From positions 186,001 to 250,000 of the forward strand of contig JACRLR010000040.1 of the NCBI GenBank assembly GCA_016219645.1: a DNA stretch of 64,000 bases, written 5' to 3'. The translations under genes and the position numbers were made by a program. Below are positions 22,850 to 23,076 of the stretch, piece by piece (the stretch's first letter is position 1; each line of letters begins with the position of its first letter). The stretch is from Nitrospirota bacterium (GTDB taxonomy: Bacteria; Nitrospirota; Nitrospiria; Nitrospirales; Nitrospiraceae). The notes below the pieces were generated by a model that saw only the letters and a program-made list of their open reading frames with translations, made no database searches and was not told where the DNA came from.

Positions 22850-22876
22850 GGATGTCTCCTTCTTCAACCTGGCGGA

Positions 22877-23041
22877 CTATATTACCGCTTCTCCACCACC
22901 GACAATGTCCAGCAGTTTCGGATTCGCTTCAGTCACAATCTGTAAGGCCTCGGTAATGGCCTGTGTATGTCTACATACCGCCATGTGTATGTTACGTGCA
23001 GAGTTTCTAGCCCCGCATCGTTGAGATTCCTTGACAATGAA
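22877..23041 (-). pseudogene. possible C-terminal remnant of ATP synthase gamma subunit
   Basis: In the slot where atpG normally lies there is only a 54-codon open stretch without a convincing start (an internal ATG at 22984 would give 35 residues). It ends ANPKLLDIVGGGEAVI then stop at 22877. The last residues resemble the conserved gamma C-terminus, which ends ELxEIVxGAxAV/L, and an upstream QAITEAL is like the RQAAIT motif. No other gamma motif survives. The stretch could be a decayed gene end or a chance reading; identity is uncertain. Confidence 0.3.
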
Positions 23042-23076
23042 CTATACGCCCTTAGACGTCAGCATTTCAGCAGTGG

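Follow-up and report, generated by a model that had tools for sequence, protein, structure and literature searches.

The F1 gamma gene (atpG) of the ATP synthase operon appears to have decayed in the Nitrospirota bacterium studied here, and gamma would instead be supplied by a solo atpG of a separate, laterally spreading lineage, either copy being losable once both are present (probability about 0.85). Recurrent displacement of the operon atpG by this laterally moving solo gene was the best reading for the order Nitrospirales. The analysis started from a 64,000-nucleotide stretch of one contig (the window), and the genome to which it belongs is referred to as G000.

The cluster in the window was checked against the list of open reading frames. 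The gene order atpH-atpA-gap-atpD-atpC on the minus strand, reported in a preliminary description made from the sequence, was confirmed, and atpH, atpA, atpD and atpC were all intact open reading frames, as had been stated. The start of atpD was placed at GTG 22849, downstream of AAGGAG, and the gap thereby covers positions 22850-23076 (227 bp). It holds no gamma gene, so that atpG is absent between atpA and atpD as claimed, and the short frame ending in NPKLLDIVGGGEAVI and a stop codon was present. The features of the cluster, all on the minus strand, are as follows.

24597..25136, minus strand: atpH (F1 delta), intact; open reading frame homologous to the delta of relatives
23077..24594, minus strand: atpA (F1 alpha), intact, 505 aa; 94% identical to that of G030
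23019..23076, minus strand: former atpA-atpG spacer, the leader of the lost atpG; aligns to the atpA-atpG spacer of G023 and G018
22915..23018, minus strand: 5' part of the atpG relic, ATG and ~33 codons with a frameshift and a premature stop; aligned to G023 by blastn
22877..22917, minus strand: 3' part of the atpG relic, the last ~12 codons and the stop (LLDIVGGGEAVI and stop), in frame with codon ~33 via a ~740-bp deletion
22850..22876, minus strand: atpG-atpD spacer with the atpD ribosome-binding site (GAAGAAGGAG); similar to relatives
21407..22849, minus strand: atpD (F1 beta), intact, GTG start (TTG 22867 according to the ORF caller)
20910..21323, minus strand: atpC (F1 epsilon), intact; open reading frame with homologues in relatives

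The interval was compared with relatives, as the preliminary description had proposed, and both ends of atpG were aligned. The 3' part of the gap matched the 3' end of the genome's own atpG (34/43 nt, E 6e-6) and the atpG end plus atpG-atpD spacer of relatives (81% over 78 nt, E 6e-17). The 5' part matched the atpA end, the leader and the first atpG codons of G023 (71% over 197 nt, E 1e-20, blastn). The gamma similarity at both ends is beyond chance, and the gene relic proposed as a possibility is a true atpG relic; a search without gamma similarity, which had been named as the outcome that would count against it, was not obtained. The C-terminal piece stood as noticed, and an N-terminal piece that had been overlooked was added to it. 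Inside the relic, ~740 bp are missing, the junction lies in frame between AAA and CTG, and in G000 translation from the original start codon would end after three codons. With atpG homology at the syntenic position and disabling lesions (internal deletion, early stop), the operon atpG of this bacterium is, as judged from its sequence, a pseudogene. Since the deletion preserves the frame, a functional mini-gamma encoded by the 35-codon frame linking the two termini was considered. It was rejected because the natural start meets the early stop in G000 and because the related genomes G030, G164 and G165 keep no such frame. A similar in-frame fusion of both atpG ends was seen in the operon gap of G057; it is taken to reflect decay at an early stage, at which a peptide product would be possible.

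The G000 assembly (3.65 Mb, 71 contigs, 100% complete, 4.3% contamination) was searched for further gamma genes and for a second F1 operon. The only PF00231 gene found by the profile search was an intact solo gene on another contig (G000:C16:27269-28132), which scored 335 bits (curated cut-off 39.9) and covered profile positions 1-285, the full length; operon gammas of relatives scored mostly about 320-355 bits. No second F1 set was found in the assembly. It contains one alpha, one beta and one Fo a-subunit, and the other alpha/beta-family matches were FliI-like and Rho-like, as assigned by score and position. The F1 of the window is therefore the sole F1, and the solo gene is its sole candidate gamma. 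The suggestion that gamma had moved elsewhere was thus correct in that an intact gene lies on C16; it did not hold for the gene's identity, as the solo gene is of a different gamma lineage and not the moved operon gene.

The solo gamma of G000 matched bacterial F1 gamma chains in the PDB along its whole length (e.g., 2qe7_G and 6n2y_G). It retained 110 of the 120 residues that are invariant across 47 operon gammas, and the conserved gamma helix motifs were present in the alignment (N-terminal TQKITKAMKMVAAAKL, C-terminal TRQAAITKELMDIVGGAEAL). Its identity to the operon gammas of its genus was ~64% in all cases, compared with ~94-95% among those gammas themselves. Pairwise dN/dS values of 0.03-0.10, which indicate strong purifying selection, refer to the solo genes of close relatives, the synonymous sites being saturated for the G000 gene itself. 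Because of this constraint in relatives, the 110 retained residues and the full-length structure matches, the G000 solo gene is taken as the presumed working gamma of the only F1Fo ATP synthase, and its product is expected to assemble into F1. At 335 bits, it stood apart from the lower-scoring second gammas of relatives (about 98-190 bits), several of which adjoin extra alpha genes, and it was not assigned to the N-ATPase gammas.

The solo atpG is divergent from an fba-ackA-xfp cluster (fructose-bisphosphate aldolase, acetate kinase, phosphoketolase); the names ackA, xfp and glgP at this locus, as well as those of the RND efflux neighbours mentioned below, were assigned by inspection of the sequence. 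ATPase genes were looked for beside the solo gamma and none were present. The gene lies upstream of two proteins for which the Pfam search gave no family, one of 372 aa (L005:8006-9124) and one of 340 aa (L005:6684-7706); the 340-aa protein recurs beside most type I solo gammas (defined below). Directly after the gamma stop (L005:9150-9275), there is a long near-perfect A/T-rich inverted repeat before the next gene, with 27 consecutive pairs (-47.5 kcal/mol, z -6.8), and a similar sequence follows the gamma in G030. A scan for promoter and terminator consensus sequences around the solo gene gave nothing above shuffles.

The distribution of both copies was surveyed in 236 Nitrospirales genomes, a solo gamma being defined as intact, full-length and away from atpA and atpD. 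Fifteen genomes (15/236) had one, and two types were distinguished: type I in G030, G032, G104, G105, G107, G163, G164 and G165, and type II in G000, G047, G057, G223, G224, G225 and G231. In addition, a type I copy truncated by the end of a contig is present in G106 (81% over the first 185 residues), where the ends of both the operon and the solo copy lie at contig ends. An intact operon atpG accompanied the full-length solo gene in five genomes (G032, G104, G105, G107, G047), and the operon atpG was lost in eight that have the solo gene (G000, G030, G163, G164, G165, G057, G223, G224); G225 and G231 were kept outside this tally due to contig ends or missing atpA at the gap. Similarity searches detected operon relics in G000, G030, G057, G163 and G224. 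These consisted of both ends in G000 and G057, the N-terminal end in G030, 40 C-terminal codons in G163 and scattered pieces in G224, and G223 has a short C-terminal remnant. Nothing recognisable as atpG was found in the operon gaps of G164 and G165. G108 has only a 34-codon C-terminal atpG relic between atpA and atpD. The reverse loss was observed in G222, which retains the operon atpG and has a solo copy decayed with stops. One more candidate solo relic (G217:C1:1251) was unconfirmed by tblastn with gamma queries and was left out of the count.

Several irregularities were recorded during the survey. The gaps of G030 (L121 4152-4332), G164 and G165 (L301, L302) contain REP-like inverted repeats of the CTGAGT/CTCAGT type (GGACTGAG...CTCAGTCC), which may have helped deletion. 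In G026, contig C22 (L128:6055-6636), the operon appears to join the first 67 delta codons to the last ~87 gamma codons, and no alpha was found in the assembly; this seems to be a deletion or a mis-join. Among assemblies of 95-99% completeness, no gamma at all was found in those of G070 and G131, and only a weak N-ATPase-like one in that of G129, which would represent either assembly gaps or further losses.

In the gamma tree, the type I solo gammas formed one clade (support 100/100). The type II solo gammas, including that of G000, formed another (100/97), sister to the operon gammas of G063, G066 and G035 (100/98); no donor closer to type II than these was found. The type II carriers other than G000 belong to a second family (f3), and their type II gammas branch inside those of family f1, the family of G000. 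Monophyly of the f3 gammas was rejected (p-AU 0.005), and lateral transfer between families is therefore concluded. A common origin for all solo gammas was not rejected (p-AU 0.074). The operon gammas of G063, G066 and G035 (L254, L250, L257) make up one clade beside type II and the alpha+beta tree splits these genomes; gamma may also have been replaced inside operons there.

The alpha+beta tree pairs G000 with G030, whose gamma at the same site is type I, and grouping of the full-length G000 gamma with type I was rejected (p-AU 0.02). Diagnostic sites between types I and II proved misleading as a test for a mosaic gene, since operon gammas are also type-I-like at the ends, and private sites were used instead. 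In codons 1-38 of the G000 solo gene, 8/10 type-I-private and 3/18 type-II-private bases were found, and in its centre 9/68 and 35/74, respectively. For the centre, placement with type I was rejected (p-AU 0.0009). The termini, taken by themselves, do not discriminate, and the C-terminal end is uninformative. The G000 solo gene is thus likely a mosaic, in which recombination replaced the central part of a type I gene by type-II-like sequence. The genomes with operon losses fall in separate groups of the alpha+beta tree (G000 with G030; G163-165; the f3 genomes), G108 not being placed, and for this reason at least three, probably four, losses of the operon atpG are estimated.

These data match what displacement would leave behind: the replacing gene differs in phylogenetic origin from the resident one (separate clades; p-AU 0.02), and relatives with both copies exist (G032, G104, G105, G107, G047, and G106 as seen at contig ends). 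In the proposed sequence of events, the solo gene would come from a separate gamma lineage and have spread among lineages of the Nitrospirales, crossing between families at least once. It would first have coexisted with the operon copy, after which either copy could be lost. In the G000 lineage, it would have been the operon copy that disappeared, first through an internal deletion and then through decay of what was left, and recombination with a second gamma type probably replaced part of the solo gene. Neutral redundancy after transfer and then loss of either copy would be the simplest account, and the reverse loss in G222 fits it; we infer both this account and the order of events.

Of the other explanations, an adaptive isoform is the one with most in its favour, and still an unlikely one. 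The solo gene would encode a conditional rotor subunit (used, for instance, in anoxia, fermentation or stress) that alters F1 coupling or regulation and became the sole gamma in some lineages. Several genera retain solo genes in addition to an intact operon gamma, the solo genes are under purifying selection, and their neighbours recur: phosphoketolase and acetate kinase at type I loci, RND efflux genes at both types. Against this, type I and type II loci have different neighbours, most of the invariant residues are retained, and solo-only genomes cannot use the solo gamma as an alternative. A more specific form, about equally doubtful, is that the solo gammas are laterally spreading rotor isoforms whose globular centre is exchanged or recombined, shifting coupling or direction preference under specific conditions, and which would serve as the sole shaft in some nitrifiers.

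Simple relocation, i.e., translocation of the operon's own atpG to C16 followed by fast evolution, is considered improbable. It would agree with there being one gamma in the genome, and the first codons of the solo gene share bases with those of the sister G030. However, remains of the own atpG are still in the operon, operon and solo copies occur together in G032, G104, G105, G107 and G047, and the solo gammas are separate deep clades with the f3 type II genes inside f1 (p-AU 0.005).

An assembly artefact would require that a normal atpG was collapsed or deleted and that the copy on C16 stems from contamination or from mis-binning of the contig. The assembly has multiple contigs and the 4.3% contamination given above, and several assemblies of relatives are fragmented. 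The relic, however, is diverged and frameshifted and not a clean cut, and the same arrangement is found in the low-contig assemblies of G163, G164 and G057. The sister G030, also without an operon atpG, has the same solo locus: 286/375 nt upstream are identical and the flanking genes are mostly 77-95% identical. Because these loci are orthologous, C16 is not contamination. Together with G030, six genomes of two further lineages show losses of their own. The loss in assembly that the preliminary description had allowed for is thus very improbable. In G030, the end of contig C87 (L122) and contig C101 (L123) carry two slightly different gamma 3' ends, which may be strain variants or a second copy.

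The least probable explanation, also raised at the outset, is that the window F1 is accessory to a complete ATP synthase elsewhere: some Nitrospirales have an extra N-type ATPase (PMC12342949), and G057 and G224 have extra alpha sets, but G000 has a single alpha, beta and a-subunit, its other matches being FliI-like or Rho-like.

A core subunit of a multi-protein machine would be expected to remain in its operon and to be hard to exchange. Under recurrent displacement, a divergent homologue that moves laterally would have taken the place of the central ATP synthase rotor on several occasions in a single bacterial order. Each stage can be seen: genomes with both copies, with an operon copy in decay, with a clean loss of it, and with the opposite outcome. 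Such genomes would be natural swap experiments on how far gamma can vary without breaking rotary catalysis. atpG would be an unreliable marker of vertical inheritance in Nitrospira, and an 'incomplete' ATP synthase operon is not necessarily broken or mis-assembled.

Compared with known systems, the solo gene resembles the F-type gamma (PF00231, atpG) in its full-length profile match and its similarity to bacterial F1 gamma structures; it differs from the usual one as a solo gene outside the operon with ~64% identity to the operon gammas of its own genus. In xenologous gene displacement, a resident gene is replaced by a laterally acquired homologue. The present case is like it in having a stage with both copies and then loss of the resident, and unlike the usual examples in that it concerns just one subunit, the central one of a rotary motor, in several lineages and with graded relics. 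No report of a solo atpG in Nitrospirales was found in the openly licensed literature, and earlier reports are possible. The sections considered of a 2025 comparative study of Nitrospirales describe extra N-type and V/A-type ATPases and do not mention a solo gamma (PMC12342949). The N-ATPase, a laterally transferred extra F-type operon that occurs in some Nitrospirales (PMC12342949), is likewise a laterally spread ATPase gene set; however, it comprises an entire operon that includes a gamma of its own, whereas the solo gamma has no adjoining alpha or beta. Apart from the N-ATPase, no clear lateral transfer was seen in a 2014 survey of ATP synthases, in which ectopic gamma duplications were found only in Aquifex aeolicus and Acidithiobacillus ferrooxidans, as isolated cases, one of them very divergent and the other a possible pseudogene (PMC4154653). 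As in these two species, a further gamma gene lies away from the ATP synthase locus in the Nitrospirales concerned, but here the solo gene is intact, recurs in 15 of the genomes surveyed and, on the reading preferred here, has taken the place of the operon copy in several of them.
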